Below, in pieces: positions 19,596 through 36,391 of a DNA stretch of 64,000 bases. Each line of letters begins with the position of its first letter. The stretch's first letter is position 1. The DNA is from Alcaligenaceae bacterium. Lineage in GTDB: Bacteria > Pseudomonadota > Gammaproteobacteria > Burkholderiales > Burkholderiaceae_B. Location: the NCBI GenBank assembly GCA_012727555.1, contig JAAYGT010000063.1:62001-126000 (forward strand), given 5' to 3'. Under the pieces are notes generated by a model. That model saw nothing but the letters and a program-made list of their open reading frames with translations. It had not been told where the DNA came from and ran no database searches. The translations under genes and the position numbers were made by a program.

Positions 19596-20357
19596 TCAGT
19601 TGGATGCCGGGGTCAGCTGATCACTTGTGCGGCCAAAACGCCGCTCGCGACCACGGTACCACTCGAAGGCGGCTTCAAGCTGAGAATCACCAAAATCAGG
19701 CCAGTAGTCGGGCGTGAAATAAAGCTCGGTGTAGGCCAGTTGCCAGACCAGGAAGTTGGAAATGCGCTGCTCGCCCCCGGTTCTGATAAAAAGGTCGGGC
19801 TCAGGGGCAAACGCCATTGAAAGATGAGGGGCAAGAACGGTTTCGTCGAGTTTTTCCGGATCCCGGAGCAGTTCGGGTTGGGTGCGAAGCACGCTTCGCA
19901 TGGCGTTCAGGATATCCCAACGCCCGCCATAATTGGCGGCAATCGTAAGATTGAGGCGTGTGTTATGTGCGGTTTTTTCTTGAGCGGAGTGAATGAGCCC
20001 TTGGAGTCGTGGCTCGAATGCAGCCAGGTCACCGACAACGCGCAGTCGCACGCCCTGCTCTACAAGTTGATCCACTTCCTTTTCCAGCGTCTGCATGAAC
20101 AATTTCATGAGCAGGGAAACTTCGTCTTTGGGACGACGCCAGTTTTCAGAGCTGAAGGCAAAAAGCGTCAGGAATTCGACACCGCGACGACCACAGGACT
20201 CGACAACCTTGCGAACGGCCTGAACGCCTCGCACATGACCGGCCGTGCGCGGCAGAAAACGCCGCGTTGCCCAGCGGCCGTTGCCATCCATGATGATGGC
20301 AACGTGACGCGGTGTTTCTGAACACGAGGGTATGGTTTGAGTTGAACTTCCGGACAT
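19596..20357 (-). CDS. uppS: Di-trans,poly-cis-decaprenylcistransferase (undecaprenyl diphosphate synthase)
   Basis: A 253-residue cis-prenyltransferase producing the C55 lipid carrier for peptidoglycan and O-antigen. The signature [16 protein letters not shown] holds the catalytic Asp, followed by [33 protein letters not shown]; the C-terminal part ends with [17 protein letters not shown] and [15 protein letters not shown] 20357 gives the family length. An ATG at 20390 would overlap the frr stop as ATGA and add 11 residues; it remains possible, since neither has a strong ribosome site. Confidence 0.95.
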
Positions 20358-20386
20358 GCAATGAAACCCGAGCCAGAAACAGCGGC

Positions 20387-20947
20387 TCAAACGGTCATGA
20401 TTTCGGCTTCTTTCTGAGAAACCAGTTTGTCGATTTCAGCCACATGCTTGTCGGTCAGTTTCTGGACTTCATCTTGCATGCGACGCTCATCGTCTTCGGA
20501 AATTTCTTTGTCTTTCACAAGTTTCTTGAGTGTGTCGTTGGCATCACGACGAAGGTTTCGAACTGCAATCTTGGCATCCTCGCCTTCAGTACGTGCCACT
20601 TTGGTGAGATCGCGACGGCGCTCTTCGGTAAGTGGCGGCATAGGCACACGGATACTCTCGCCCATGGAAATGGGGTTCAGACCCAGGTCGGATTCGCGAA
20701 TGGCTTTTTCGACAGGGCCGGCCATGCTTTTTTCCCAGACCTGTACATTGATGGTGCGTGCATCGACAACGTTGACATTGGCAACCTGGCTGATGGGCAC
20801 GGGTGAACCGTAGTATTCAACATGGACGTGGTCGAGCAGGCCCGCGTGTGCACGACCCGTGCGAATTTTCGAAAGATTGGCTTTCAGGTTTTCAACCGAT
20901 TTGCTCATGCGCGATTCGGCTGATTTGCGGACTTCTGCGAGACTCAT
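20387..20947 (-). CDS. frr: Ribosome recycling factor
   Basis: A 186-residue tRNA-mimic that, with EF-G, splits post-termination ribosomes. It has the standard length and blocks: [20 protein letters not shown], the central [20 protein letters not shown], and [19 protein letters not shown] with [12 protein letters not shown] at the C-terminal side. ATG 20947 has AAGGA seven bases upstream; the frame opens six codons earlier. The start is 14 bases after the pyrH stop, in the conserved tsf-pyrH-frr order. Confidence 0.97.
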
Positions 20948-20961
20948 GACGATTCCTTTGA

Positions 20962-21678
20962 TCAAACGTGAACCAGTGTGCCCTCGTCTTCACCGGAAAT
21001 GGCGCGACGCAACGCACCTGGTTTATTGATGGAGAATACTTTGATGGGCAACTTCTGATCGCGGCACAAAGCGAACGCTGTTGCATCCATCACTTCAAGG
21101 CGGCGGACAATTGCTTCGTCGAAGCTGATGCGGGCATACCGTGTGGCGTTGGGGTCTTTATTGGGATCAGCGCTGTAAATCCCGTCGACTTTGGTCGCCT
21201 TCAAAACGATTTCAGCACCGATTTCCGCACCTCGCAGGGCTGCAGCGGTATCCGTGGTGAAAAACGGATTGCCTGTACCGGCCGCAAAGACAACCACTTT
21301 ACCTTCTTCAAGGTAACGCAATGCCTTGGGGCGGATATAGGGTTCAACGACCTGATCGATGTTCAGTGCAGACTGGACACGGGTATCGATCCCCCGGTGC
21401 TTGAGCGCATCTTGGAGTGCAAGTGCATTCATGACTGTTGCCATCATGCCCATGTAATCGGCTGTGGCGCGATCCATGCCTTGGGCACCGGGCGCAACGC
21501 CCCGGAAAATATTACCACCACCGATCACGATGGCCAGCTCCACACCCAAGGTGGCAACTTCTGCGATTTCTTCGGTCATGCGCACGATGACATTGCGATT
21601 GATACCGAAGGCATCTTCACCCATGAGCGCCTCGCCCGAGAGCTTCAGGAGAACACGCTTGTACGATCTGGTGGTCAT
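20962..21678 (-). CDS. pyrH: Uridylate kinase (UMP kinase)
   Basis: A 238-residue amino-acid-kinase-fold enzyme that phosphorylates UMP to UDP. Motifs seen: [20 protein letters not shown] (phosphate binding), [36 protein letters not shown], and [22 protein letters not shown] with [16 protein letters not shown] 21678 gives the usual start. UMP kinases of this type are hexameric and allosterically inhibited by UTP (family knowledge). Confidence 0.97.
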
Positions 21679-21774
21679 AGGTTGTATTCCAGGTATAAAA
21701 CAAACCAACGGAAGTTTAAGCTAAAAGTCGGGCCAGCACAGAGTGCCGGCCCGACCTGCACGGCATTGCGGAAA

Positions 21775-22653
21775 TCAGGGGTTGCCGGCAGCGGCAGCAG
21801 CAACTTCAGCAGCGAAGTCTTCGGTTTTCTTCTCGATGCCTTCACCAACTACATACAAAGCGAAACGGGAGATCTTCGAACCTTTTTCCTTGAGCATTTG
21901 CTCGACGGACTGTTTGTCGTTCTTGACGAAAGGCTGTGAAAGCAGAGTAACTTCCTTGAGGAATTTCTGCACGGAACCTTCGACCATTTTGGCAACGATT
22001 TCAGCAGGTTTGCCGGATTCGGCAGCCTTTTGCTCGGCGACTGAACGCTCGGCAGCGATGTCGTCTGCCGACACGCCGCTGGCATCAAGTGCTTTGGGCT
22101 TGGTAGCCGCAATGTGCATGGCAAGGTCTTTGCCGGTTTCTTCAGCGCCCGCAAAATCAACCAGCACGCCGATCTTGCCACTGTGCACGTAGCTGGCCAG
22201 GGAATCGGTTGTTTCAAAGCGCTGGAAACGACGGATCGACAAGTTTTCACCGATCTTGCCAACCAGGCCTGCGCGTGTGCTCTCGACAGTACCTTCCGCC
22301 ATGGGCAGTTCGGCAAGGGTGGCGAGATCAGCAGGATTCTTGCTTGCAACGAGTTCGGCCAATTGATTGACAAACCCGATGAAGTCGTCGTTTTTGGCGA
22401 CAAAGTCGGTTTCGCAATTCACTTCAATAACAGCACCCGTTTTGGCGTCAGGAGCAATATAGAGACCAATCAGGCCTTCTGCCGTGATGCGGGCAGCTGC
22501 CTTGCTGGCTTTGTTGCCCAGCTTGACACGCAGGATTTCTTCGGCACGCGCCATATCGCCATCGGCTTCAGTGAGTGCTTTTTTGCATTCCATCATGGGC
22601 GCATCAGTTTTCTCGCGCAGTTCTTTAACCATGGATGCGGTGATTTGGGCCAC
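21775..22653 (-). CDS. tsf: Elongation factor Ts
   Basis: A 292-residue guanine-nucleotide exchange factor for EF-Tu. The N-terminal UBA-like domain reads [20 protein letters not shown] then [20 protein letters not shown]; the central [15 protein letters not shown] block contacts EF-Tu. The start is a GTG at 22653, six bases after a GGAG ribosome site; it restores the conserved residues before ITAS. A start at the internal ATG of MVKEL would drop them, and the longer upstream frame has no ribosome site. It is cotranscribed with rpsB, with a hairpin in between. Confidence 0.96.
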
Positions 22654-22728
22654 AATATTCTCCAGTTCAGTAAGACACGCCCCTAAGAGACCGGGGGGAT
22701 ACGACAAGGCAGGACAAGGCGAGCGCAC

Positions 22729-22743
22729 CCCGCCGGAGGCGGG
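22729..22743 (-). promoter_or_regulatory. Hairpin in the rpsB-tsf spacer
   Basis: On the minus strand CCCGCC-TCC-GGCGGG gives a 6-bp GC stem 42 bases after the rpsB stop, within the 132-base rpsB-tsf gap. There is no T-run, so it is not a classic terminator. It could partly attenuate transcription or stabilise the rpsB mRNA 3' end, consistent with the usual excess of ribosomal protein mRNA over tsf. Confidence 0.4.
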
Positions 22744-22785
22744 ATGGTCGCAATGAGCCGACCAGAAAGGCCGGCCCGGGATGTA

Positions 22786-23541
22786 TTACTCGCGCTCTTC
22801 TTCGGCGTTGACTTCGACGAATTCTTCTTCGCCTTCGGCAATTTCTTCAACAAGACCGTTCAGACGCTGTTCACGGCCTTCGAGGATGGCATCGGCCATG
22901 CCGCGTGCGTACAACGCAATAGCTTTGGCAGAGTCATCGTTACCAGGAATGATGTAATCAACGCCATCGGGGGAATGGTTGGTATCGACAACGGCCACGA
23001 CCGGAATACCCAGTGTATTGGCTTCAGCAATGGCGATTTTATGGTAGCCGACGTCAATCACGAACAAGGCATCAGGCAATGTGTTCATGTCTTTGATGCC
23101 ACCAATGGACTTGTTCAATTTTTCAAGTTCACGTTGGAACATGAGCGCTTCTTTTTTGCTCATGTGCTCGGTCGCGCCTTCAGCCTGCTGGACTTCCATG
23201 TCTTTCAGGCGCTTGACGGATGTCTTGACCGTTTTGAAGTTGGTCATCATGCCGCCCAGCCAGCGGCTGTCGACGTAGGGCATGCCGCAACGGGCAGCTT
23301 CGGCCGCCACCAGTTCACGCGCAGCGCGCTTGGTGCCAACAAACAGCACGTTGCCACCACGAGCAGCCAATTGACGCAGGAACTTGGCTGCCTCGGTGTA
23401 CTTGACGACTGTTTGCTCAAGGTTGACGATGTGAATCTTGTTACGGGCGCCGAAAATGAACGGGGCCATTTTCGGGTTCCAGTAGCGGGTCTGGTGACCA
23501 AAGTGCACACCAGCTTCAAGCATTTCACGCATAAGCGACAT
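22786..23541 (-). CDS. rpsB: 30S ribosomal protein S2
   Basis: A 251-residue ribosomal protein of the small subunit body. It opens with [20 protein letters not shown] and carries [40 protein letters not shown] and [16 protein letters not shown]. The C-terminus is very acidic ([20 protein letters not shown]), as in beta-proteobacterial S2 proteins. The ATG has GGAG eight bases upstream. First gene of the long leftward operon. Confidence 0.98.
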
Positions 23542-23644
23542 AATAAATCTCCAAGGGTTGGGTCTTGCACCGGCGTTGCACCCGATTAAAATTCAGGCAC
23601 CCTCAAAGGCATCCGGCACGCGATTTTTCACTAAAATTTTTTGT

Positions 23645-23702
23645 CATTTCCCAAAATTCAGGAAAGCCTATAATTCTACTATTTTTAGACCACTGAACAC
23701 AA
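23645..23702. promoter_or_regulatory. Overlapping divergent promoters for rpsB and map
   Basis: On the minus strand TTGTGT (23697-23702) and TAGAAT (23673-23678) are separated by 18 bases, a credible promoter for the rpsB operon. On the plus strand a perfect TATAAT (23669-23674) lies 35 bases before the map ATG, with only a poor -35. The two -10 boxes physically overlap, so RNA polymerase binding in the two directions should be mutually exclusive. The 167-base gap otherwise holds an AT-rich stretch and the long rpsB leader. Confidence 0.55.
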
Positions 23703-23708
23703 GTAGCC

Positions 23709-24530
23709 ATGACCACACTCGTTACCGACCCCCACGACCTCGATAAAATGCGTGCCGCATGCCAGGCTGCAGCGTCCGCGCTTGACCACCTGGCACCTTT
23801 CGTAAAGGCTGGGATCACCACGGGCGAACTCGACAAATTGTGCATGGACTACATTACAAATGTACTTAAGGTCGAATCTGCCACTGTGGGCTATGCACCG
23901 CCCGGTTACACCCCCTTCCCTGCTTCAATCTGCACATCAGTGAACCATGTCATTTGCCATGGCATTCCTGGCGACAAAATCCTCAAAAACGGCGACATCC
24001 TGAATATCGACGTCACCGTCATCAAAGATGGCTGGTTTGGCGACACAAGCCGCATGTTCTTCATTGGCGAGCCATCGATACTCGCGCGCCGTCTTGTTGA
24101 GACAACCTATGAATGTATGTGGCTGGGCATTGAACAGGTCAAGCCCGGTGCAACCCTGGGGGATATCGGCCATGCCATTCAGAAACACGCCGAAAAACAG
24201 GGTTTTTCTGTTGTTCGTGAATACTGTGGTCACGGCGTGGGGCGCAAGTTTCATCAGGATCCCCAGGTATTGCACTACGGCAAGGCGGGCAGCGGGCAGG
24301 TGCTGGAAGCCGGCATGATTTTCACCATCGAACCCATGATCAATGCCGGACGCCGGGAAATTCGCACACTGGCTGATGGCTGGACGGTCGTCACACGTGA
24401 CCGCAGCCTTTCCGCACAATGGGAACACAGCATTCTGGTCACACCGTCAGGCTACGAAGTGTTGACTGTCTCGAGCGGCATGCCGTTGCCGCCCGACTTT
24501 GCGCATGGCTACACCTCGGCACTGGCCTGA
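23709..24530 (+). CDS. map: Methionine aminopeptidase type I
   Basis: A 273-residue metallo-aminopeptidase (M24A) removing the initiator methionine from nascent proteins. The metal-binding residues fall in the expected motifs: DILNIDVTVIKDGWFGDTSR (two Asp), YCGHGVGRKFHQDP (His), FTIEPMI (Glu) and SAQWEHSILVT (Glu). The conserved substrate His is in CTSVNHVICHGIPGD. Divergent from rpsB, matching the common map/rpsB arrangement; it is followed by glnD after 76 bases with no visible terminator. Confidence 0.97.
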   Translation: MTTLVTDPHDLDKMRAACQAAASALDHLAPFVKAGITTGELDKLCMDYITNVLKVESATVGYAPPGYTPFPASICTSVNHVICHGIPGDKILKNGDILNIDVTVIKDGWFGDTSRMFFIGEPSILARRLVETTYECMWLGIEQVKPGATLGDIGHAIQKHAEKQGFSVVREYCGHGVGRKFHQDPQVLHYGKAGSGQVLEAGMIFTIEPMINAGRREIRTLADGWTVVTRDRSLSAQWEHSILVTPSGYEVLTVSSGMPLPPDFAHGYTSALA

Positions 24531-24606
24531 AATCCAGTCGTGATTTTTCTGCACTGACACGGCCTGTCCGGTAAACTTCTTCTGAATCAGTTTGCCGGGC
24601 ATCGTC

Positions 24607-27198
24607 ATGCACAGTTCTTCAAGTTTGCTCGCCCATATCAAAGAGCAACACGCGCTCAAACGCACCGCCATCCTGCAGGCGTTTCGGGTGCATCTCAGGC
24701 CAGATACCTTGCTGCACGGTTTGCGCCGGGTTACAGACACCACACTGCGCGAGCTTGTGCAGCACTTTCCCTTGCCGCGCGCAGCAACGCTGGCGGCGGT
24801 CGGCGGTTACGGCCGTGGCGAACTTTATCCGTATTCCGATGTCGATGTCCTGATCTTGCTGAACCAGACACCCTCGGCAACCGATGCAGGCATGATCGAG
24901 TCGTTTGTTGCTGCACTCTGGGATATCGGGCTGGAACCCGGCCATAGCGTACGCACCATCGAAGACTGCAAGCAGGAAGCAGCCAACGACATCACGGTTG
25001 AAACTGCCCTCATGGAATCACGCTGGCTGACAGGCAGCAAATCACTGCTTGCCCGCCTCAAGGCAACCATGCAGGAACAACAGGATCCACAAGCTTTTTT
25101 TCAGGCCAAGCGCGCAGAAATGCAGCAAAGGCACGCTCGTCACCAGGAAACACCCTATGCGCTTGAGCCCAATTGCAAGGAAGCGCCAGGCGGCATTCGT
25201 GACCTCCAGGTTCTGCTCTGGATGGCGCAAGCCGCAGGGTTGGGCAGCACTTGGCGCGAGGTCTCGCGCACCGATCTCCTGACCGCCGAGGAATACCGTT
25301 CGCTGCGTCGTACAGACCAGGCGTTCAAAAGGCTGCGCATTGAATTGCACTTGCTGGCAAAGCGCCGCGAAGACCGGGTTCTGTTCGACCTGCAACCTGC
25401 CTTGGCAGAAGTCTATGGGTTCGAAGCCACACGTACCCGTAGAGCCAGTGAAATCCTGATGCAGCGCTACTACTGGGCGGCCCGCACCGTGAGCCAGTTG
25501 ACCACACTACTGCTGCAAACACTTGAGGAACGTCTTTTCCCGCTGCCCGATGTCCGTGTCGAACTGATCGATGAGCACTTCACCGCACAGCGGGGCAAGC
25601 TTGGACTACTGCGCGATGACGGGTTTGAACGTAATCCCTCATTGCTTTTGCGGGCCTTTCTGGTGTTGCAGGAACGTCCCGATTTGACCGGTTTTTCTGC
25701 ACAGACCTTGCGGGCCATGTGGCATGCACGTCATCGCATTGACGCCCAGTTCAGAAGCAACCCTGTCAATCGCAAACTGTTTTTGCAGATCCTTCAGCAA
25801 CCACGCGGTATCGTGCACGGCCTGCGCCGTATGGCCATGTTGAACATCCTGCCCCGTTACTTGCCTGTATTCAGGCGTATTGTCGGCCAAATGCAGCATG
25901 ATCTTTTTCATGCCTACACCGTTGATCAGCATATCCTGATGGTGATTCGCAATCTGCGCAGGTTCACCATGCCCGAACATGCCCAGGAGTACCCTTTGGC
26001 CAGCCAGTTGATTGCAGGGTTTGACCGTCACTGGTTGCTGTATGTGGCTGCGCTCTTTCACGATATCGCCAAAGGTCGAGGCGGTGACCACTCGCGGTTG
26101 GGCGCCCTTGAGGTCCGGCGCTTCAGCAAGGATCACGGCATCGAGGGCGAAGACAGAGACTTGCTTGAATTTCTTGTCAGGCATCACTTGACCATGTCAA
26201 CCGTTGCCCAGAAGCGGGACCTCAGCGATCCGTCGGTCATCAACGAATTCGCACACTGTGTAGGCTCCCAGCGCGCACTGACCGCCCTGTATTTGCTGAC
26301 TGTCGCCGATATTCGTGGCACCAGCCCGAAAGTGTGGAATTCCTGGAAAGGCAAGCTGCTTGAAAATCTTTATCAATTGACAATGCAAACACTCGGTGGC
26401 GGTTCCGTTGATACTGGTACGGTGCTTGAACAACGCAAAATCGAGGCTGCCAATGAAATACGACTGATGGGCCTGCGTGACGAAACGCGCGAAGCCTTCT
26501 GGAATCAACTGGATGTTGCTTATTTCCTGCGCCATGAAGCCAGTGAAATTGCATGGCACACACGTCATTTGTATTACCGTGTCGATACAGCCGAACCCGT
26601 TGTAAAAGCCAGGGTTCTTGGGCAAAACGAAGCCTTGCAAGTAATGGTGTATGCCCCTGACCGCGACGATCTGTTTGTTTCAATTTGCAGGTATTTTGAC
26701 CAGCGCGCCCTGAATATCCAGGATGCCCGGGTGCACACAACACGGCACGGCTGGGCGCTTGACAGCTTCATCGTGCTGCTGCCGGGCAACGATAAAGACT
26801 ACCGATCAAACGCCTCCCTCGTCGAGCATGAGCTCGATACGTTTCTCAGGGTATCAGAGCACCCTGAAGTTGAATCATTGCGCCAGTATGGCCTGCGGTC
26901 GAAAGGTTCCCGGCGCTCCCGCGTCTTTCCGATCATGCCCACGGTGGAATTACAACCCGATGAGCGGAGCACGTCCTGGCGTCTGGCCATCACAACGGCT
27001 GACCGTCCGGGCCTGCTTTACAGCCTGGCCCGTGTCTTTGCCAGCCACCAGATCAATTTATTGACCGCCAAGATTCTGACGCTCGGTGATCGTGTTGAAG
27101 ATGTTTTCATCATTGAAGGCGATGCCCTGGGTCATCCACGCACCCAATTACAATTTGAACGGGCCGTTCTGGCCGCCCTTGACCCTGCAACGCTTTGA
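24607..27198 (+). CDS. glnD: [Protein-PII] uridylyltransferase / uridylyl-removing enzyme
   Basis: An 863-residue nitrogen sensor that uridylylates PII proteins under nitrogen limitation and de-uridylylates them when glutamine is plentiful. Domains: nucleotidyltransferase (AAVGGYGRGELYPYSDVDVL, with the Asp pair, about residues 70-90), a GlnD-type helical region (EPNCKEAPGGIRDLQVLLW), an HD domain (VAALFHDIAKGRGGDHS near residue 485) and two C-terminal ACT domains (YAPDRDDLFVSICRYFDQRA; TTADRPGLLYSLARVFASHQ). ATG 24607 is preferred over a start five codons upstream. The dsbB gene follows six bases later. Confidence 0.97.
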   Translation: MHSSSSLLAHIKEQHALKRTAILQAFRVHLRPDTLLHGLRRVTDTTLRELVQHFPLPRAATLAAVGGYGRGELYPYSDVDVLILLNQTPSATDAGMIESFVAALWDIGLEPGHSVRTIEDCKQEAANDITVETALMESRWLTGSKSLLARLKATMQEQQDPQAFFQAKRAEMQQRHARHQETPYALEPNCKEAPGGIRDLQVLLWMAQAAGLGSTWREVSRTDLLTAEEYRSLRRTDQAFKRLRIELHLLAKRREDRVLFDLQPALAEVYGFEATRTRRASEILMQRYYWAARTVSQLTTLLLQTLEERLFPLPDVRVELIDEHFTAQRGKLGLLRDDGFERNPSLLLRAFLVLQERPDLTGFSAQTLRAMWHARHRIDAQFRSNPVNRKLFLQILQQPRGIVHGLRRMAMLNILPRYLPVFRRIVGQMQHDLFHAYTVDQHILMVIRNLRRFTMPEHAQEYPLASQLIAGFDRHWLLYVAALFHDIAKGRGGDHSRLGALEVRRFSKDHGIEGEDRDLLEFLVRHHLTMSTVAQKRDLSDPSVINEFAHCVGSQRALTALYLLTVADIRGTSPKVWNSWKGKLLENLYQLTMQTLGGGSVDTGTVLEQRKIEAANEIRLMGLRDETREAFWNQLDVAYFLRHEASEIAWHTRHLYYRVDTAEPVVKARVLGQNEALQVMVYAPDRDDLFVSICRYFDQRALNIQDARVHTTRHGWALDSFIVLLPGNDKDYRSNASLVEHELDTFLRVSEHPEVESLRQYGLRSKGSRRSRVFPIMPTVELQPDERSTSWRLAITTADRPGLLYSLARVFASHQINLLTAKILTLGDRVEDVFIIEGDALGHPRTQLQFERAVLAALDPATL

Positions 27199-27204
27199 GC
27201 TTTT

Positions 27205-27690
27205 ATGCACGTATCACGACGCTTACTTCATTCGATGGCCTGGCTGGCAACCCTGGCCGTTGTTTTTGCCCTGATTTCACAACATTTTTTTGATATGCAG
27301 CCTTGTGCCTGGTGTGTCTTCCAGCGACTGCTGTTCCTGCTTGTCAGTCTGGTCTGCTGGGTCAGTCTGGCTGTGTCACGTCGTGGCCTGTTCTGGGTGC
27401 AGCGCCTGGCGGGCGCACTGGTCGCAATCACCGCCATCGGCGGTGTGATTTCAGCCGCCTATCAATACAAGATTGCGTCCAATCTGTTTTCGTGCGACCT
27501 GACCTTTGCGGATCGTTTCATGGTTGAAAGCCGCCTTGATGCAACCCTGCCCTGGTTGTTCGGCATTTTTGCCACGTGCGCCGATGCCCGTGTGAATCTG
27601 CTGGGCATCGAATATGCGCTGTGGGCACTTGCATTGTTCGCCCTGCTGGCTTTGGGCGGGTTATGGGCGATGTTCAGGCCAGCGCGCTGA
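27205..27690 (+). CDS. dsbB: Disulfide bond formation protein B
   Basis: A 161-residue four-helix inner-membrane quinone reductase that reoxidises DsbA. The first periplasmic loop has the redox pair CAWC (about residues 33-36, in DMQPCAWCVFQRLLF). The second loop has the other pair, in NLFSCDLTF and IFATCADARVN. Hydrophobic helices flank both. It follows glnD by six bases and overlaps the convergent phosphoketolase-like gene by 17 bases, so no terminator separates them. Confidence 0.93.
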   Translation: MHVSRRLLHSMAWLATLAVVFALISQHFFDMQPCAWCVFQRLLFLLVSLVCWVSLAVSRRGLFWVQRLAGALVAITAIGGVISAAYQYKIASNLFSCDLTFADRFMVESRLDATLPWLFGIFATCADARVNLLGIEYALWALALFALLALGGLWAMFRPAR

Positions 27691-29986
27691 GCGCTGCCTG
27701 TTCAATATGTTGCCAGGTACATCGGTTCGCCAGCAGCATTCCCTGAACATCGAATGTACCGCCTGCATTGGCGTATCCCAATGCCCGGGTACGCCGGGGC
27801 CCGCCATCAAGACGGCGCAACATGCCCAGCAGGGGCTCAGGTCGGCAGTGACTGACGATCACACGGGCGCAGGTCGCTGGAAAATGCTGCATTAATATTG
27901 TGTCAGGATGTACAAAAGCAGCTTCCAGCGGGTCGCGGGGGCTACGCAGTCGGCCGGGTTCAAGAATACAGCTGACACAAACGTGAATTCCCGACTTCGC
28001 AAGGTGATCGGCTGCTTTCAAGGCCTCATGCAACTGATAGGCTCCGATGGCCACCAATTGCACTTCGGCTTTGGCCGGACTGCCCGCTGCATGAAAAAAG
28101 CCCTGCTCACACGCCTGTGTTGCCGTGTCGGTATCAAGCAGCACAGGCATTTCGCTTTTGGGTACAACCAGGGCGGCGATGACGCCACGGTCTGAATACA
28201 CGCGGCGAATGGCCGCCACGGCAGTGGCTGCATCAACCGGAAACATTACCCTTGATGTTTCAGCCATTTCGGCCATGAGCAATTCCGAAAGACCCGGATC
28301 CTGATGCGATTGCTCGTTCTTGCCATTTTCCCAGGTATGCGAGGTCAACAGCAAGGGAACACCAAGCCAGCCCGGCGATTGCCCGGCGAGACGCTGGTGT
28401 CGGGCAAAGAGAATATCCTGGCGTAATGCACCGAGCATTTTCAGCGCAAAGGCTTCGTAGCTGACCACCAGATTCAATCCACCCTTGTTACCCAGTGCGG
28501 CACCCACCACCGCCTCTTCGTTCAGCGCCGTTATGACGCAGCCATCAATGGCTTCGTCGATACCATGTTCAGGACGATTGACGCGATGCTTCAGACGATT
28601 GAGTGTGCCCGCCATTTTATTGCTAGCCAATTCATCGGGGTTACCCACCCGCACACGAAGGCCGGGATTAGCATTGACCATCTCAACAAAATGATCGTCG
28701 ATTGCCTGCATGGGTGAATACATTGACCCCACAGCAGGTAAAACGGGCTCGGGCATCACAGGTGCATCGGGGTGACGACGCGCCAACGGGTGTTCGGCCT
28801 CGCGGGGACGCGACTGTTGTGCGTGCAGGTTCAAAACATCAACAGCCTGTTGAAGTTCATTCAGCGGAACATGCAAACGGGCACTGCCCTGGTTGAACAT
28901 TGCACGTGCTTCGGGATCAACGTGTGGATTACCATCAAGCGGCAGGTTATGGGCACGGTTCAGCCCGGCCCCTGGAAAGCCGTACCCTTTGACACAACGA
29001 GCAATGGCATACGGCAAAGGAGTTGGGTAATGGGCCTGTGCATCCGGCTGCAGCCAGGGCGCCAGACGATGCTCCATGTGCAGAAAAGCCCAGGCATACG
29101 CTGCGGGGTCGTGACCATCGATCTCGAAGGGGTCGAATCCGTTGAGCGCAAGATGTTCGGACAACCACCGCGAACCACCTTGCTGGATAATCGTTGTCCG
29201 TTGTTCGATACGACGCCCGTTGAGAATCATGACAGGCAGTACCGTGCCTGAATCGGACCCGCGCCACCAGCGAGGAGCCCAATCTGCACCGCGCTGTTCC
29301 TCGAAGGCGCCATCGCTCAGGAAAACAGCCAGACTTTCACCGGGCAAGGGCATGTGAACATACTGGATCTCGGCAAAACCCAGGTAACCGCCTTCGGAAA
29401 TACCGCCGGCCGTATGCACGTTCACATGGCTACCCAAAGGCACACCCGGGCGACCATCGGGTGTAATGGCGTAGGAATAAAAATCACGAACGAGTTGTGT
29501 CAGGCCTTGATCAGAGAGTGTGTAGCGATCTTGCTGGGCCGGTGAAACATTGCCGACCAGCGCGTTCACGGCATCGATGGCTGCAACACAGTGACCTTGC
29601 CCCATAAGCCAGCCCCGGGTTTTACCGCTGAGCGCGTTGGCCAGCAGGTAGCCTACATAGGCAGGAACCATATTGAGCGCACCGCCGGTGTGCCCCTGAG
29701 GAGATGGTTTGAAATCGTGTGCTTCAAGGGCTTGCCCCGAAAGCAGCACCCGATCAGCGTAGGTCATGTGAACGACCACCCACATGGCCGCATTCGCAAG
29801 CCGATCGGCGGCTGCCAGCAGCTTCAGGGCGTGAGCCGGCTCAACCGCCAGTCCGGATTCCGCCGGCCCTGAAAGCAGACTTTTGAGGCGCGCCCGTGTT
29901 TCTGGCTGATGCTCAATGACACCGAAACCTCGTGCCCAGATTTCATACGCGCCAGAGGATAAGAAAGTGGATTGTTGTGCGTTCAT
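27674..29986 (-). CDS. Phosphoketolase-family thiamine diphosphate enzyme, divergent
   Basis: A 770-residue protein with the overall plan of xylulose-5-phosphate/fructose-6-phosphate phosphoketolase. Recognisable blocks: SPQGHTGGALNMVPAY (for the GHWGTTPG block), MGQGHCVAAIDA (for GPGHGGPA), the ThDP-binding LSDGAFEEQRGADW with ILNGRRI (for GDGEAETGPLA with LNGYKI), NPDELASNKM and NEQSHQDPGLSELL. The usual His in the SIHEGGELG motif is Ser here (GGISEGGYLG). The family affiliation is clear; the reaction is not. Close relatives have, as I recall, been annotated as xylulose 5-phosphate 3-epimerase. ATG 29986 has AAGGA about ten bases upstream. It lies alone after the purF terminator. Confidence 0.75.
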   Translation of the reverse strand: MNAQQSTFLSSGAYEIWARGFGVIEHQPETRARLKSLLSGPAESGLAVEPAHALKLLAAADRLANAAMWVVVHMTYADRVLLSGQALEAHDFKPSPQGHTGGALNMVPAYVGYLLANALSGKTRGWLMGQGHCVAAIDAVNALVGNVSPAQQDRYTLSDQGLTQLVRDFYSYAITPDGRPGVPLGSHVNVHTAGGISEGGYLGFAEIQYVHMPLPGESLAVFLSDGAFEEQRGADWAPRWWRGSDSGTVLPVMILNGRRIEQRTTIIQQGGSRWLSEHLALNGFDPFEIDGHDPAAYAWAFLHMEHRLAPWLQPDAQAHYPTPLPYAIARCVKGYGFPGAGLNRAHNLPLDGNPHVDPEARAMFNQGSARLHVPLNELQQAVDVLNLHAQQSRPREAEHPLARRHPDAPVMPEPVLPAVGSMYSPMQAIDDHFVEMVNANPGLRVRVGNPDELASNKMAGTLNRLKHRVNRPEHGIDEAIDGCVITALNEEAVVGAALGNKGGLNLVVSYEAFALKMLGALRQDILFARHQRLAGQSPGWLGVPLLLTSHTWENGKNEQSHQDPGLSELLMAEMAETSRVMFPVDAATAVAAIRRVYSDRGVIAALVVPKSEMPVLLDTDTATQACEQGFFHAAGSPAKAEVQLVAIGAYQLHEALKAADHLAKSGIHVCVSCILEPGRLRSPRDPLEAAFVHPDTILMQHFPATCARVIVSHCRPEPLLGMLRRLDGGPRRTRALGYANAGGTFDVQGMLLANRCTWQHIEQAALSALA

Positions 29987-30023
29987 TCGGGTCGTGATCC
30001 TTGGGTTTGGCAGGCACGGCCGC

Positions 30024-30061
30024 AAAAAACGCCGCCGTTTCCCGAAGCGGGTGCACGGCGG
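30024..30061 (-). terminator. Intrinsic terminator after purF
   Basis: On the minus strand CCGCCGT (30061-30055) pairs with ACGGCGG (30038-30032), with an inner CCCG-CTT-CGGG helix, followed by TTTTTT at 30029-30024. It lies just after the purF stop and ends the folC-dedD-cvpA-purF transcript before the phosphoketolase-like gene. Confidence 0.88.
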
Positions 30062-30073
30062 GGCTATTACGGA

Positions 30074-31570
30074 TCAGTCGTCTTTGCGACTGCCCATGGC
30101 ACCCGAAGGTGCTGTCTGGCCACGGCTCTGCCTGAGACGTTCAAGATAGGCGGCATCAATGTCGCCGGTAATGTAGTGCCCATTGAAACATGAAGATTCA
30201 AACCCTGCCATGGCCGGATTGAGATCACGAATCGACTGTTCGAGGTCGTTGATTTCCTGATACACAAGCGCATTGGCCCCGATTTCACGGGCAATCTGGT
30301 CGGTATCGCGCCCGGTGGCAATCAGTTCAGCCTGTGTTGGCATGTCGATGCCGTACACGTTGGGGAACCGCACGGCAGGCGCTGCCGAAGCAAAATACAC
30401 TTTGTTGGCACCCGCAGCACGGGCCATGTCGACAATTTCCCGACTGGTGGTGCCACGCACGATGGAGTCATCGACCAGCAACACGTTCTTGCCGCGAAAT
30501 TCCATGTCGATCGCACTGAGCTTCTGCCGGACGGATTTTTTGCGCACGGCCTGGCCCGGCATGATGAAGGTTCTGCCCACGTAGCGGTTTTTAATGAAAC
30601 CTTCGCGATAATTCAAACCGAGACGTGATGCAAGTTGCATCGCGGCCGGTCTTGAAGAATCGGGTATGGGCATGACGACATCGATTTCACCCAGACGCAG
30701 CGATTTGGCCACGTTATCGCCCAGGTATTCACCCATGTTCAGACGCGCGTCGTAGATGGAAACGCCATCCATCAGCGAATCTGGACGTGCAAAGTAAACA
30801 TATTCGAAAACGCAGGGATTGAGCAGCGGGTTTTCTGCACACTGGCGGCTGGTCAGATTACCATCCAGATCAATGAAAATGGCTTCGCCGGGTTCAACGT
30901 CGCGCTTGAGCGTGAAACCACACGCAGTAATGGCGACCGATTCCGAAGCAACCATCCACTCGGTACCCTGATCGGTTTCCTGGTAACCCAGGCAAAGGGG
31001 CCGGATACCGTAAGGATCACGGAAAGCGACCATGCCGTAACTGGCAATCTGGGCAATGACCGCATAGGCACCGCGGGCACGACGGTGAACTCCCGAAACT
31101 GCTGTGAAAATAGCATTTTCATCGAGGGAAATACCCGTGGCTGCTGTTTGAAGCTCATGGGCAAAGACATTCAGCAAGACTTCGGAATCGGAGTTTGTGT
31201 TGATATGACGCCGGTCGATGCGAAACAGTGCTTCGCGCAGCTCACGCCAGTTGGTCAGATTGCCGTTATGAACAAATGTAATGCCAAAAGGCGCATTCAC
31301 ATAGAACGGCTGGGCTTCATCGACACTGTCACTGGAACCGGCGGTGGGGTAACGAACCTGACCCAGACCGCTGTTGCCGGGCAGCGATCGCATGTTGCGT
31401 GTTCTGAAGACATCGCGTACCAGGCCGTGGGCCTTGTACATGCTGAAAAACGGGTCGTGTGCCGTTGAAATACCCGCTGCGTCCTGGCCACGGTGCTGCA
31501 AAAGCAGCAGGCTGTCATAAATCAACTGATTTACGGGGCTTTTGCCGGCAACCCCTACAATTCCACACAT
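30074..31570 (-). CDS. purF: Amidophosphoribosyltransferase
   Basis: A 498-residue enzyme for the first committed step of purine synthesis, PRPP plus glutamine to phosphoribosylamine. It starts [10 protein letters not shown]; Cys2 becomes the N-terminal nucleophile of the glutaminase domain after Met removal. The phosphoribosyltransferase half carries the PRPP loop [19 protein letters not shown]. No N-terminal propeptide or Fe-S cysteine set, so it is the E. coli-like type. It is 28 bases after cvpA, in the same order as the E. coli folC-dedD-cvpA-purF operon. Confidence 0.97.
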
Positions 31571-31598
31571 TTTTGGTTTCCTGTGAATACACTGAGAA

Positions 31599-32087
31599 TC
31601 AATACGGAAGCCACGCCCCGATGGTGGGAGGCAAGGCTGGTTTTATCTGTTGAATAGCCTGAATGATCAGGGGAGAAAATGCGGCATCGCGCCACCAGGG
31701 TTCCGCGGGAAGATCGGTGTATCCGCCCAGGCTGACAAGAACCAGAATAATCAGAAGGCCACGGGCCAGGCCGAACAGGGCACCCATACCGTTATCGGCT
31801 GGGGTCAGACCGGTACGCTCGACCAGCGTGGCCAGCGTGATATTGATCAGACCGACAAGTAGCAGCACACAAATGAAAACCACGCCATAGGCCAAACCGG
31901 TACGCAAGAGCGTATTTTCCACCCAGGGCTCAAGCCAACCCGATACCCGTGCTCCCCACCAGACGGCCGCCATGAAGGCAACGGCATAAGCGACCAGGGA
32001 AAGCACTTCCTTGATGAGACCGCGCATGAAGCCAAGCAGGGCTGAAACAGCCAGAACAGCCAGTACCAGGTAATCGAAACTGGTCAC
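31599..32087 (-). CDS. cvpA: CvpA family inner-membrane protein
   Basis: A 162-residue protein with four hydrophobic segments. The N-terminus [20 protein letters not shown] with [15 protein letters not shown] is typical of CvpA, and [20 protein letters not shown] is the conserved third region. Family members are linked to colicin V production and envelope homeostasis; the molecular activity is not established. Its ATG overlaps the dedD stop (ATGA), and it precedes purF. Confidence 0.92.
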
Positions 32088-32905
32088 TTGGTCGAGATGA
32101 AGCCGTTGTCAAACCCCAGGGCCCTGAGACGAGCCTGGGCAGCCTGAGCGGCATCACGCGTGGGGAATGGCCCAACCCGCAACCGGTAGGCTGTTTTGCC
32201 GCCTGCGGTGGACTGTTCGATATAGGCGTTGGTGACGCCGGACGAAACCAGACGATCGCGGCGGGCTTGAGCATCTTTTTCAGTGCCATAGGCCGCAATC
32301 TGGAGAATGAAGTTACCCCGCTCGCTGGTTGCTGCAGGTGCCTGTTGACGCGGAGGCGAACGCCCTTCAAGCAAAGCCAGGGCGACTGAGCCGTCGTCAG
32401 TGCGTTGCTTGGGCGGATTGGGCACAGGCGCAGGCGCCGGCGGTTTCACAGGGGCTGATGCAACGGCAGGCGCAGGCGGTGTTGGCGCAGGCGTGACGGA
32501 TACTGTTGGCGCAGGGGGTGACGTTTCTGGCGACCCGGCCTGCGGGGTGGGCTGCAACGTGTTGCCGGGGCTTGGATCGACCGAGACAAGGCCGTTGGCA
32601 CGTTCAGGCGCCTGTGTGGAGAGTGTACCCGAACTGGCCGTGGAGGCGCCTGAAGAAGGGCTTGTTTCAGGCACGCCAAAACCCTGCATGACAACCGGAA
32701 CAGGCATTTCTTCAGGTTCAGGGCCGGAATCGAAGGCCATGGGCACGACGATGACGGCCGCCAGCACGAGGGCCAGGGCACCGATCAGGCGGTGCCTGGC
32801 ACGCTGACGCATTTCACGCACCTGGGCCTCGGCCGACTGGGGCGTGCGCGGACCCGTGCGAAAACCCGTATCGTGCTCCGACTGACTACGAGAGAACCAT
32901 CCCAT
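32084..32905 (-). CDS. dedD: SPOR-domain cell division protein, DedD-like
   Basis: A 273-residue bitopic membrane protein. A short cytoplasmic N-terminus is followed by a single transmembrane helix (LIGALALVLAAVIVVPMAFD, residues 41-60). A long Pro/Ala/Ser-rich periplasmic linker spans about residues 75-180, and a C-terminal SPOR domain runs from NFILQIAAYGTEKDAQARRD to ALGFDNGFIS. SPOR domains bind denuded septal peptidoglycan, so a division role is expected from family knowledge. Low-complexity GC-rich DNA encodes the linker. It sits between folC and cvpA as in E. coli. Confidence 0.9.
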   Translation of the reverse strand: MGWFSRSQSEHDTGFRTGPRTPQSAEAQVREMRQRARHRLIGALALVLAAVIVVPMAFDSGPEPEEMPVPVVMQGFGVPETSPSSGASTASSGTLSTQAPERANGLVSVDPSPGNTLQPTPQAGSPETSPPAPTVSVTPAPTPPAPAVASAPVKPPAPAPVPNPPKQRTDDGSVALALLEGRSPPRQQAPAATSERGNFILQIAAYGTEKDAQARRDRLVSSGVTNAYIEQSTAGGKTAYRLRVGPFPTRDAAQAAQARLRALGFDNGFISTK

Positions 32906-33021
32906 GAAGCGAACCTATTGCAAGAAAATAGCAGACCATAAAAGCGGTGAGCCCGACACACACCTGGACCGATTGCGGGGCCATTTACCAGATCATTCAC
33001 CAGACCACTTATCGGGCCGAT

Positions 33022-34446
33022 TCAGGTAATTGTCTGTTCAAGTACCGGGCCTACGACAGCAAACGAGCCGAAAACCACAATTCTATCATTCCCGCCTGCC
33101 TGGTTTCTGGCCGCCAAATAGCCGGCAACGGGGTTGGAGTACAGGGAAATGGATGGCTCAGGCCGTTCGACAACCGGGCTGACGGCGGGGCGAACACCGG
33201 GCTTGGCGCGTAGATCAGGTTCCGAGGCTTGAATCGGGCTGGCAGAGAACTGACGTTCATCAGGTACCGATGGGGCTGCGGCCGCACTGCCCTTGCCTGC
33301 CCTGCGTACAATGGCCTGACGCACCTTTTCAGCCAGGTCAGATGCCGATGTTCCCCTTGGCCCGTCAAGGCCGACACAATGCCAGTGATCGACCTGATCA
33401 GCAAGGTGATCCAGCACGGCCGGAATGTCTTTGTCGGCGTAGATGCCCACCACGGCATGCGTTGCAGTGAAGGACTGGCCCATGGCCTCGAGATTGCGTG
33501 CGAGCACACCGGCCGCCTGTGGATTATGGGCAACATCGATGATGACCACAGGTGTACCCGGCAACACCTGGAAACGGCCGGGTAAAGTCACCTGGGCCAG
33601 ACCGATACGCACTGCCTGCTGCGGCACGACCAATTCAAGTCGCAAGGCTTCGAGAGCGGCCAGGACTGCGGATGCATTGAGCAGTTGGTTGGCCCCGCGC
33701 AAGGCTGGATAGGCCAGGCCGGCACGTCGCTGATCGCGCCCGCCGTAGGCCCATTGCTGGCGGTCGCCCGAGTAGTTGAAGTCGTGACCGAACAACCAGA
33801 GATCAGCGCCCACGTGGTGTGCGTGGTCAATTACGCTTTGCGGGCATACAGGATCGGAAACGATGGCGGGTTTGCCTGAACGGAAGATACCAGCTTTTTC
33901 GAAGCTGATTTTTTCTCGCGTATCGCCGAGATCATCGGCATGGTCAATATCGATGCTGGTGATGATGGCACAATCAGTATCGACCATGTTCACGGCATCG
34001 AGGCGCCCCCCCAGGCCAACCTCAAGGACGGCAACCTGCATGCGCTCCTGTTCAAACAGCATCAGGGCGGCCAGAGTGCTGAATTCAAAGTAACTGAGTG
34101 TGATTTCCTTGCGGGCCAGGTTGATCCGGTGAAATTGCTCGATGATCTGTGCATCGGCCGCGTAGTCACCGTTGATGCGTATGCGCTCGTTGTAGCGCAC
34201 CAGGTGGGGCGACGAGTAGGTGCCAACGCGATAGCCTGCGGCCTGCAAAATGGCTTCGAGCATCGCACAGGTTGAACCTTTGCCATTGGTACCTGCGACA
34301 GTGATCTTCAGATACGGCAATTCAAGGCTCAACCGGTCTGCGACCGCACGAATACGATCAAGACCAAGGTCGATGGGCGATTTGTGCAGGGTTTCAAGGT
34401 AGGCAAGCCACTCGGGCAAAGAGGATTGAAGGTCAGGCACAGGCAT
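33022..34446 (-). CDS. folC: Bifunctional dihydrofolate synthase / folylpolyglutamate synthase
   Basis: A 474-residue Mur-ligase-fold enzyme that adds glutamate to dihydropteroate and extends folate polyglutamates. Motifs: GLDRIRAVADRL, the P-loop VAGTNGKGSTCAMLEAIL, SPHLVRYNERIRING, EVGLGGRLDAVNMVD, SIDIDHADDLGDTREKI and VIIDVAHNPQAAGVLARNL. About 45-50 residues of Pro/Ala/Ser-rich sequence are inserted near residue 385-435, between the final helix and the last strands (GYLAARNQAGGNDRIVVFGS), making it longer than the usual 420-430. ATG 34446 is chosen over an upstream start with an unrelated hydrophobic leader. Confidence 0.95.
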   Translation of the reverse strand: MPVPDLQSSLPEWLAYLETLHKSPIDLGLDRIRAVADRLSLELPYLKITVAGTNGKGSTCAMLEAILQAAGYRVGTYSSPHLVRYNERIRINGDYAADAQIIEQFHRINLARKEITLSYFEFSTLAALMLFEQERMQVAVLEVGLGGRLDAVNMVDTDCAIITSIDIDHADDLGDTREKISFEKAGIFRSGKPAIVSDPVCPQSVIDHAHHVGADLWLFGHDFNYSGDRQQWAYGGRDQRRAGLAYPALRGANQLLNASAVLAALEALRLELVVPQQAVRIGLAQVTLPGRFQVLPGTPVVIIDVAHNPQAAGVLARNLEAMGQSFTATHAVVGIYADKDIPAVLDHLADQVDHWHCVGLDGPRGTSASDLAEKVRQAIVRRAGKGSAAAAPSVPDERQFSASPIQASEPDLRAKPGVRPAVSPVVERPEPSISLYSNPVAGYLAARNQAGGNDRIVVFGSFAVVGPVLEQTIT

Positions 34447-34505
34447 GGGACACCACCTAGACAGGTGCGGAATAGGAAAAGACGCAATGATACGGTAAAG
34501 GCAGT

Positions 34506-34553
34506 CCGAAAAAGAAACCGCGAGCACGTAAAAATAATTCACGAACTCGCGGT
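34506..34553 (-). terminator. Intrinsic terminator after lpdA
   Basis: On the minus strand ACCGCGAG (34553-34546) pairs with CTCGCGGT (34524-34517), followed at once by TTCTTTTTC. The loop is long (21 bases) but contains CGTG/CACG pairing that closes it further. It lies about 40 bases after the lpdA stop and ends the pyruvate dehydrogenase transcript before folC. Confidence 0.75.
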
Positions 34554-34592
34554 CTGGTGGTTGACCTCTGAATGCCCTGGACTGTTTACCGG

Positions 34593-36383
34593 TTACTTGC
34601 GACGTGCAGGAGGAAGATCGGTACAGTGGCCTTCAGCGGCTTCGGCAGCCATGCCGACCGACTCGCCCAGTGTTGGGTGTGGATGAATGGTTTTGCCGAT
34701 ATCAATGCTATCGGCACCCATCTCGATGGCCAGTACCACTTCACTGATCAGGTCACCGGCGCCGGTTCCCACGATACCACCACCCAGGATACGACCGGTT
34801 TCGGCATCGAACAGCAATTTCGTGAAGCCTTCGTCGCGCCCGTTCGCAATGGCACGCCCCGAGGCCGCCCAGGGAAACACACCACGTTTGAGGGCTACAC
34901 CCTGCGCTTTGGCCTGTTCTTCGGTCAGACCAACCCAGGCCACTTCAGGGTCAGTGTAGGCCACCGATGGAATGACACGCGCATCGAATGCAGCCTTGTG
35001 CCCGGCGATGACTTCAGCTGCCACATGGGCTTCATGAACCGCTTTATGGGCCAGCATGGGTTGCCCCACGATGTCGCCAATGGCGTGGATGTGAGGCACA
35101 TTGGTGCGCATCTGGTCATCGACCGGAATGAAGCCACGCTCTGTGACTTCAACCCCGGCATTGCGGGCGCCGATTTTCAAACCATTGGGAGATCGCCCGA
35201 CGGCCTGCAAGACAAGGTCGTAGCGCTGGGGCTCCGATGGCGCATTCTTGCCTTCAAATGAGACCCAGATGCCGTCATCACGGGCTTCAGCGGCCACCGT
35301 GCGGGTTTCAAGCATGATGCGATCAAAACGATGCTCATTCTTCTTCTGCCACACCTTGACCAGATCGCGGTCAGCACCCGGCATGAGACCCGGCAACATT
35401 TCAACGACATCAAGGCGAGCACCGAGACCGGAATAGACGGTACCCATTTCCAGCCCGATGATGCCGCCGCCAATGATCAGCATTTTTCCGGGAATGGATG
35501 CCAGTTCAAGGGCACCCGTGGAGTCAATGATGCGAGGGTCATCAGGCAAAAAGGGCAGTTTGACCGATTGACTGCCTGCCGCAATGATGGCCGAGCCGAA
35601 CTGGAGCATGCGGGTATCGCCGGGTGCCACCTGAACCTGAAGGTGATTGGGTCCGGTGAATTCGCCAACGCCCTGAATTACAGTGACCTTGCGGGCACGT
35701 GCCATGCCGGCAAGCCCGCCTGTCAGTTTGCCAATGACACTTTCTTTATGAGTGCGCAGTGCATCAAGGTTGATGACGGGTTCACCGAAAACAATGCCAT
35801 GTGTACCCAGGGAACGGGCTTCTTCGAGTACGGCAACCGAGTGCAGCAACGCCTTCGACGGGATGCAGCCCACGTTAAGGCAGACGCCCCCGAGGGTTGG
35901 ATAGCGTTCGACCAAGGCAACCTTGAGGCCCAGATCGGCTGCACGAAAGGCAGCCGAATAGCCACCAGGACCCGCTCCGAGGACCAGGACATCGAAGTGA
36001 TTGTCATTCGATGCATTTTCGGGAGACGGCGAATTGACCGATGAAGGTGTGCTGGCTGGTTGACTTGCATGGGCAGGTACCTGGGCTGCCGGCGCCGAAG
36101 GGGCCGATTGTGCAGCAACCGCGGCAGGTGCTGCCATCGTCCCTTCGGCAGCACGGACAATGGCCAGCACAGAACCTTCGCTGACTTTGTCACCGACCTT
36201 GACCAACACCTGTTCCACCACCCCGCCATGCGATGCGGGGATTTCCATGGAGGCCTTGTCGGATTCGACCGTGACCAGGCTTTGATCGGCCGACAGGGTG
36301 TCGCCGGCAGCAACCAGCACTTCGATGACTTCTACATGGTCAAAATCACCGATATCGGGCACTTTCAATTCAATGGAATTCAT
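34593..36383 (-). CDS. lpdA: Dihydrolipoyl dehydrogenase (E3) with N-terminal lipoyl domain
   Basis: A 596-residue flavoprotein reoxidising dihydrolipoyl groups of the pyruvate dehydrogenase complex. Residues 1-80 form a lipoyl domain with the lysine motif VESDKASMEIPASHGGVVEQ, an addition typical of betaproteobacterial E3 proteins. An Ala/Pro linker of about 40 residues follows, then the FAD site VLVLGAGPGGYSAAFRAADL, the redox disulfide GGVCLNVGCIPSKALLH, the NAD site MLIIGGGIIGLEMGTVYSGL and the C-terminal HPHPTLGESVGMAAEA with the active-site His-Glu pair. It is eight bases after aceF. Confidence 0.97.
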   Translation of the reverse strand: MNSIELKVPDIGDFDHVEVIEVLVAAGDTLSADQSLVTVESDKASMEIPASHGGVVEQVLVKVGDKVSEGSVLAIVRAAEGTMAAPAAVAAQSAPSAPAAQVPAHASQPASTPSSVNSPSPENASNDNHFDVLVLGAGPGGYSAAFRAADLGLKVALVERYPTLGGVCLNVGCIPSKALLHSVAVLEEARSLGTHGIVFGEPVINLDALRTHKESVIGKLTGGLAGMARARKVTVIQGVGEFTGPNHLQVQVAPGDTRMLQFGSAIIAAGSQSVKLPFLPDDPRIIDSTGALELASIPGKMLIIGGGIIGLEMGTVYSGLGARLDVVEMLPGLMPGADRDLVKVWQKKNEHRFDRIMLETRTVAAEARDDGIWVSFEGKNAPSEPQRYDLVLQAVGRSPNGLKIGARNAGVEVTERGFIPVDDQMRTNVPHIHAIGDIVGQPMLAHKAVHEAHVAAEVIAGHKAAFDARVIPSVAYTDPEVAWVGLTEEQAKAQGVALKRGVFPWAASGRAIANGRDEGFTKLLFDAETGRILGGGIVGTGAGDLISEVVLAIEMGADSIDIGKTIHPHPTLGESVGMAAEAAEGHCTDLPPARRK

Positions 36384-36391
36384 GCGTGCTC

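Follow-up and report, generated by a model that had tools for sequence, protein, structure and literature searches.

The gene at positions 27674..29986 (minus strand) of the window, which is the whole 64,000-nucleotide stretch analysed here (contig JAAYGT010000063.1, positions 62,001 to 126,000, of an Alcaligenaceae bacterium, assembly GCA_012727555.1), encodes a 770-residue protein related to the XFP family of phosphoketolases, and with a probability of about 0.68 we consider its product to be a divergent, thiamine diphosphate (ThDP)-dependent, acetyl-phosphate-forming phosphoketolase of a sister clade, serving energy metabolism at low oxygen. Phosphoketolases split sugar phosphates to acetyl phosphate. 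The computed results that bear on this assignment are the predicted fold, the clade, the retention of most of the listed pocket residues and a repeated linkage to acetate kinase. The open reading frame (ORF) is intact, with its ATG at 29986 and its stop codon ending at 27674, and the protein is no stray mutant phosphoketolase; it belongs to a large sister clade that has been little studied.

Generally, domain and fold searches pointed to the same enzyme family. The protein matched Pfam XFP (128.3 bits against a cut-off of 22) and XFP_N (50.8 bits against 23.7), and a Pfam scan up to E = 1 returned five families, every one of them of ThDP enzymes. The best solved relatives are phosphoketolases of Bifidobacterium, with E about 3e-19 and about 20% identity. 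An AlphaFold model built from 61 aligned clade members (predicted local distance difference test score, pLDDT, 84.7; predicted template modelling score, pTM, 0.86) was matched to Bifidobacterium phosphoketolase 3ahc with Z 37.0 over 681 residues at 2.9 A, and Foldseek agreed on phosphoketolase with E 9e-38 to 8io8_A; the predicted fold is that of a phosphoketolase over the whole chain. Transketolases share the ThDP fold and the domain order, but the best of them scored lower against the predicted model (Z 29.4) and they lie on a far branch of the tree.

In the tree of 20 family, 18 canonical-branch and 6 transketolase sequences, the clade is monophyletic (support 97/99) and sister to canonical XFP (100/100), both on long stems, while the 770-residue protein neither branches inside the canonical XFP clade nor groups with the transketolases. 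A phylogeny had been proposed in an earlier note on this DNA, made from the sequence alone, and this sister position is the answer to it. The XFP-like gene was found in 8 of 41 genomes, namely the host and 40 relatives, at 49-100% identity (orthologues of the 770-residue protein being 49-67% identical), as well as in 13 of 398 genomes of an even phylum sample including the host (E <= 1e-60). At least 565 places in named genomes encode relatives (tblastn, E <= 1e-3), and the best 80 of these, which are the nearest to the query and not a random sample, were taken for a survey of loci. The clade was found in Alpha-, Beta- and Gammaproteobacteria, and all 80 surveyed loci, going by their titles, belong to Proteobacteria. 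One relative genome (G016) carries both an XFP-like and a canonical XFP gene.

The public naming of the clade tells another story, since RefSeq gives 14 plasmid copies (51-61% identical), among the best 15, the product name 'xylulose 5-phosphate 3-epimerase'. That the clade has this activity is scarcely credible: the proteins so named are of ThDP type and fall in the same clade, the name denotes an unrelated reaction, sequence and fold match ThDP phosphoketolases, no epimerase family appears in the Pfam list, and the searches by sequence and by fold gave the name no support. It appears to be a mistake passed on from record to record. Assigning the clade would correct annotations, as most plasmid copies carry a name that sequence and fold contradict. 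As a separate observation, several of the plasmid copies in L120-L125 lie in islands with varying mixes of copper and heavy-metal genes, cytochromes, cardiolipin synthase, type II (archaeal-type) glyceraldehyde-3-phosphate dehydrogenase and AarF/UbiB. The genome G039 (L012; L201 at about 11600) has a C-terminal XFP-like fragment (43% over about 125 residues) in the vicinity of beta-CASP-type, phosphorylase and Prs genes, suggestive of an XFP-like gene that decayed in place.

The active site was compared with the Bifidobacterium enzyme, for which PMC10547157 gives 13 pocket side chains together with R442 and K605 near the substrate phosphate. Residue numbers were carried over by motif from the phmmer alignment (chain offset 20) and that published list, and were checked in 61 family and 10 canonical sequences, with a wider check on 20 family and 18 canonical-branch sequences; the 61 comprise the window protein and 60 of the 80 loci, the other 20 being omitted for odd length (L052) or by thinning. 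Eleven of the 15 listed residues are kept in 61/61 (H64, H97, H142, G155, H320, S440, E479, Y501, N549, H553 and K605), and the equivalent of the ThDP-contacting Glu479 is Glu490 (28517..28519, minus strand). Titles in the PDB list the mutants H64A, H142A, H320A and H553A, so these histidines have been singled out for study, and all four are present in the 770-residue protein.

Two listed positions are changed across the clade. His548 is replaced by lysine in 61/61 and Gln321 by asparagine in 60/61, and both changes occur in 20/20 family rows versus 0/18 canonical-branch rows. In the window protein, the first falls in the segment WENGKNEQSHQDP (28295..28333, minus strand; residues 552-564), where Lys556 takes the place of His548 while Asn557 and His561, the canonical Asn549 and His553, are kept; the second is found in His346-Asn347 (28946..28951, minus strand), with canonical His320 kept and Gln321 replaced by Asn. 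They are accompanied by H480 to Glu, next to the glutamate that contacts ThDP, and by a seven-residue shortening after KGY. Two further changes were considered as distinctive for the clade and rejected because some canonical-branch sequences share them: Q546 to Asn, found in 61/61 family members, also occurs in 4/18 of the canonical-branch sequences, and the R442 position, variable within the family, is Lys in 3/18 of them. Overall, the clade shares with canonical phosphoketolases the whole-chain fold, the ThDP glutamate and, leaving the glycine aside, the nine other kept residues named above, and differs from them in its low identity of about 20%, the changes at 548, 321 and 480, the shortening after KGY, an altered GDGEAETGP motif and its separate place in the tree. 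Lys556 and Asn347 probably adjust how substrate or phosphate is bound, and the clade offers a natural test of the role of position 548 in phosphoketolases.

The earlier note had drawn attention to other residues, namely GGISEGGYLG (29378..29407, minus strand; residues 194-203) in place of a loop with an active-site histidine, and SDGAFEEQRG (29288..29317, minus strand; residues 224-233) as the counterpart of GDGEAETGP. Both motif changes exist, and they are not chance, because they are common to the clade: at the canonical His152 position, occupied here by Ser197, the family has Ser in 54/61 and His in 0/61. In the second motif, Asp225 was aligned by phmmer with the Asp of canonical GDG; the MAFFT alignments place it two columns off, and their column for the Mg-site Asp, misaligned by two positions, was not used in favor of the better phmmer pairing. 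The view that replacing His by Ser in the EGG loop changes a proton relay, and through it the reaction, is nevertheless highly improbable. The change is real and clade-wide, and the site neighbours Gly155, which is on the list of PMC10547157 and is kept as Gly200; but His152 itself is absent from the 13 residues given in that paper, and the position is not His in 2/18 canonical-branch sequences (Asn in L176, Leu in the Legionella enzyme). No broken relay is supported either, because the equivalents of the five listed histidines H64, H97, H142, H320 and H553 are all present in 61/61, leaving H548 as the listed histidine that is changed. The His152 hypothesis was, therefore, rejected after the checks on 61 family and 10 canonical sequences and then on 20 and 18, and the His152 change is probably not the one that matters. 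What survives of the claim is a changed active site in an intact ThDP enzyme; the residue picked was very probably wrong, the changes to note being H548 to Lys and Q321 to Asn. The value of the finding lies not in a changed proton relay but in a sister clade that is widespread and misnamed, whose active site has a fixed lysine and whose gene neighbourhood is telling. The sequence L176, with Asn for the EGG-loop His, is a high-scoring canonical phosphoketolase (1444 bits to the canonical profile).

The loss of a listed pocket histidine in 61/61 might also suggest that the clade has lost phosphorolysis and acts as a transketolase, a carboligase or an acetate-releasing hydrolase. This is very unlikely, as the equivalents of H64, H97, H142, H320, H553, Tyr501, Asn549 and Lys605 are kept, the linkage to acetate kinase points to acetyl phosphate as the product, and the tree separates the clade from transketolase. 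The proposal in the earlier note of a different reaction or substrate thus divides: a different substrate is possible, while an entirely different reaction is less probable, since acetate kinase often adjoins the gene and all 13 XFP-like genomes of the phylum sample have an acetate kinase. The most likely product is still acetyl phosphate, formed from a ketose phosphate.

Gene neighbourhoods of the relatives were consistent with a phosphoketolase of this kind. Among the 80 loci (tblastn, E <= 1e-15), a homologue of a beta-CASP-type metallo-hydrolase is present in 62, an AMP-phosphorylase-like homologue in 49, a phosphoribosyl pyrophosphate (PRPP)-synthetase (Prs) homologue in 43 and an acetate kinase homologue in 40. 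In 25 loci the kinase is directly adjacent, on the same strand and at most 800 bases away, and 72 of the 80 have one or more of these four partner genes. Family models on example partners gave beta-CASP with RMMBL, the PRK04350 thymidine-phosphorylase subfamily, the PRK07199 ribose-phosphate diphosphokinase and acetate kinase. Canonical phosphoketolase genes likewise occur beside acetate kinase (e.g., L139). At the genome level, acetate kinase accompanies the XFP-like gene in 13/13 genomes versus 202/398 overall in the even phylum sample (8/8 versus 121/213 when counted by genus) and in 8/8 versus 25/41 among the close relatives, these counts being uncorrected for relatedness. Ten of the 13 phylum-sample genomes with the XFP-like gene have at least one partner gene nearby.

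On the proposed mechanism, the enzyme would cleave a ketose phosphate between C2 and C3, and the two-carbon unit bound to ThDP would then lose water and leave, together with phosphate, as acetyl phosphate, from which the cognate acetate kinase would form acetate and ATP. For many relatives, RNA or nucleotides may be the source of the sugar phosphate, by way of the beta-CASP ribonuclease-type protein, the AMP-phosphorylase-like enzyme and the Prs homologue, and such a module might supply energy under oxygen shortage. Since relatives often carry the gene beside acetate kinase and nucleotide-recycling genes, the clade probably aids energy supply at low oxygen.

These nucleotide genes also allow another substrate, in that phosphoketolase chemistry might, in place of xylulose 5-phosphate, use a product of the nucleotide-phosphorylase branch, such as pentulose 1,5-bisphosphate, whose additional phosphate Lys556 would bind. 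The frequency of the phosphorylase and Prs homologues in the loci and the clade-wide changes of H548 to Lys and Q321 to Asn would fit this, as would the phosphorylase itself, which is modelled as PRK04350 and comes close to AMP_phos (479 bits, below the cut-off of 535). We regard this substrate as unlikely, albeit one to be taken seriously, because in Legionella fallonii a canonical-branch phosphoketolase with His548 holds the same slot, in the order beta-CASP-type hydrolase, phosphorylase, Prs homologue and phosphoketolase, another canonical enzyme lies near the phosphorylase and Prs pair in L176, and many clade members, the host included, have no phosphorylase. In Sulfitobacter dubius, the clade's enzyme comes after phosphorylase and Prs, and the occurrence of two XFP branches in one operon slot favors the same kind of reaction for both. 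A fuller scheme of ribonucleotide-fed fermentation is quite unlikely: here, the beta-CASP ribonuclease and the nucleotide phosphorylase would turn RNA into pentose bisphosphate, the Lys-bearing phosphoketolase would cleave a C1-phosphorylated pentulose, expelling phosphate where canonical enzymes expel water, and acetate kinase would gain ATP from RNA at low oxygen.

Evidence for a role at low oxygen comes from regulatory sites and from published work on other bacteria. Perfect FNR boxes numbered 12 in the 80 loci versus 0 or 1 in each of 19 permuted controls. In L206, the clade's gene is divergent from a beta-CASP gene, which is followed by a LOG-type gene and recA, an order that fits that of PAO1 near recA. 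In Table 1 of PMC8575079, PA3613 of P. aeruginosa, printed as phosphoketolase, and PA3614, of the metallo-beta-lactamase (MBL) superfamily, are marked as raised at low O2 according to earlier studies; neither has an entry in the Anr column, and control by Anr is thus not claimed there. The type of PA3614 matches the neighbour of the clade's gene in 7 of the 9 loci L205-L213, and by this neighbour type and the gene order near recA, not by sequence, PA3613 is the apparent P. aeruginosa counterpart of the clade. A transposon mutant of PA3613 was reported in PMC4676916 as not attenuated in mice. In Bradyrhizobium, Table 2 of PMC6515984 lists as raised in microoxia a phosphoketolase possibly of the clade, bll2518 (log2 fold change 4.3), along with the MBL protein bll3115 (2.9), the ribose-phosphate pyrophosphokinase bll3116 (4.4) and the thymidine-phosphorylase-family protein bll3117 (2.1). 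The assignment would offer a testable explanation of how numerous aerobic proteobacteria, probably with Pseudomonas among them, may obtain ATP from pentoses or RNA when oxygen is low.

Several results weigh against a low-oxygen, acetyl-phosphate-forming phosphoketolase. The profile Pfam XFP_C was missed (14 bits against a cut-off of 23.4), as were all NCBIfam phosphoketolase cut-offs, the best being PRK05261 with 138.7 versus 962 bits, and the lysine and asparagine at positions 548 and 321 fall on listed active-site positions. The literature search, in the portions of text it returned, found no biochemistry or enzyme activity for the clade. Among the 80 loci, 13 have neither acetate kinase nor as many as two of the three nucleotide genes, and 8 of these 13 have none of the four partners; the partner counts are, in addition, inflated by relatedness because the loci are those closest to the query. 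The three phylum-sample genomes with no partner gene nearby are G177, G212 and the host, and the phosphorylase occurs in only 3 of the 13 XFP-like genomes. Eleven of the 12 FNR boxes lie at least 3 kb from the enzyme gene, that of L044 alone being close (231 bases upstream), and the host gene itself has no FNR box, none being found at up to 2 mismatches in the 600 bases upstream. A survey of 51 phosphorylase loci, fetched at about 8 kb on each side and shorter at contig ends, covered 46 of the 47 phylum-sample places (G274, at a contig end, was omitted), 4 loci of close relatives chosen for having both XFP-like and phosphorylase matches, and the Legionella locus. XFP genes of both kinds are absent from 41 of the 46 stretches; the XFP-like gene occurs in 4 and a canonical XFP in 1.

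Among the other five surveyed loci, four carry the XFP-like gene (in L201 just the fragment) and one a canonical-branch XFP. A fixed co-occurrence of the XFP-like gene with the AMP-phosphorylase/Prs pair was rejected as not general, given the 41 of 46 loci and the 3 of 13 genomes. Separately, the AMP-phosphorylase-like gene stands beside a Prs homologue in most of the 51 loci (L155-L204 and L149), usually with no phosphoketolase, and the pair is perhaps an independent, older nucleotide module.

In the host, the genes of the module are partly present but dispersed. The acetate kinase is encoded on another contig (C98:944-2083), and the kinases that immediately precede the XFP-like gene in L040-L043 and L131 match it at 62-63% identity, while a beta-CASP protein, 69% identical to the G024 neighbour, is encoded about 76 kb away on the same contig as the XFP-like gene. 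No AMP-phosphorylase-like match was found in the host genome at E 1e-10, and its best match to the PRPP-synthetase homologue of the module is only 27% identical. With the partners dispersed and no AMP-phosphorylase-like gene found, ordinary pentose phosphates are the likelier feed in the host. The description of the gene as isolated, given in the earlier note, holds locally, as the window has no acetate kinase or PTA-domain gene and no pentose-pathway gene was seen among the ORFs of window positions 20000-38000, but not beyond it, as the host genome has an acetate kinase and in many relatives the gene is linked to one. The genome's matches to these two families are all on other contigs; they include three PTA_PTB-domain matches, two of them in long frames that resemble malic-enzyme fusions. 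The host beta-CASP gene (L221 4917-9093) is flanked by genes for a Usp protein, a Crp-family regulator and a Lysine_decarbox (LOG-type) protein, and the beta-CASP/LOG pair is present in L206 as well.

The XFP-like gene is the sole XFP_N match in the host genome. It follows purF on the same strand and lies tail to tail with dsbB, with a 17-base overlap, both neighbours being named from reading their translations. Its base composition gives no indication of foreign origin (gene guanine-plus-cytosine content 0.575 versus 0.562 for the window), no defence-system match was found, and no sigma-70-like promoter was found near the gene. An alternative TTG start lies at 30025 (minus strand). Between purF and the gene, a stable hairpin with a T run (30020..30075, minus strand; -28.2 kcal/mol, z -3.55) looks like an intrinsic terminator of purF, and a simple pattern scan for terminators did not report it. 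This hairpin leaves fewer than 50 bases as promoter room for the XFP-like gene.

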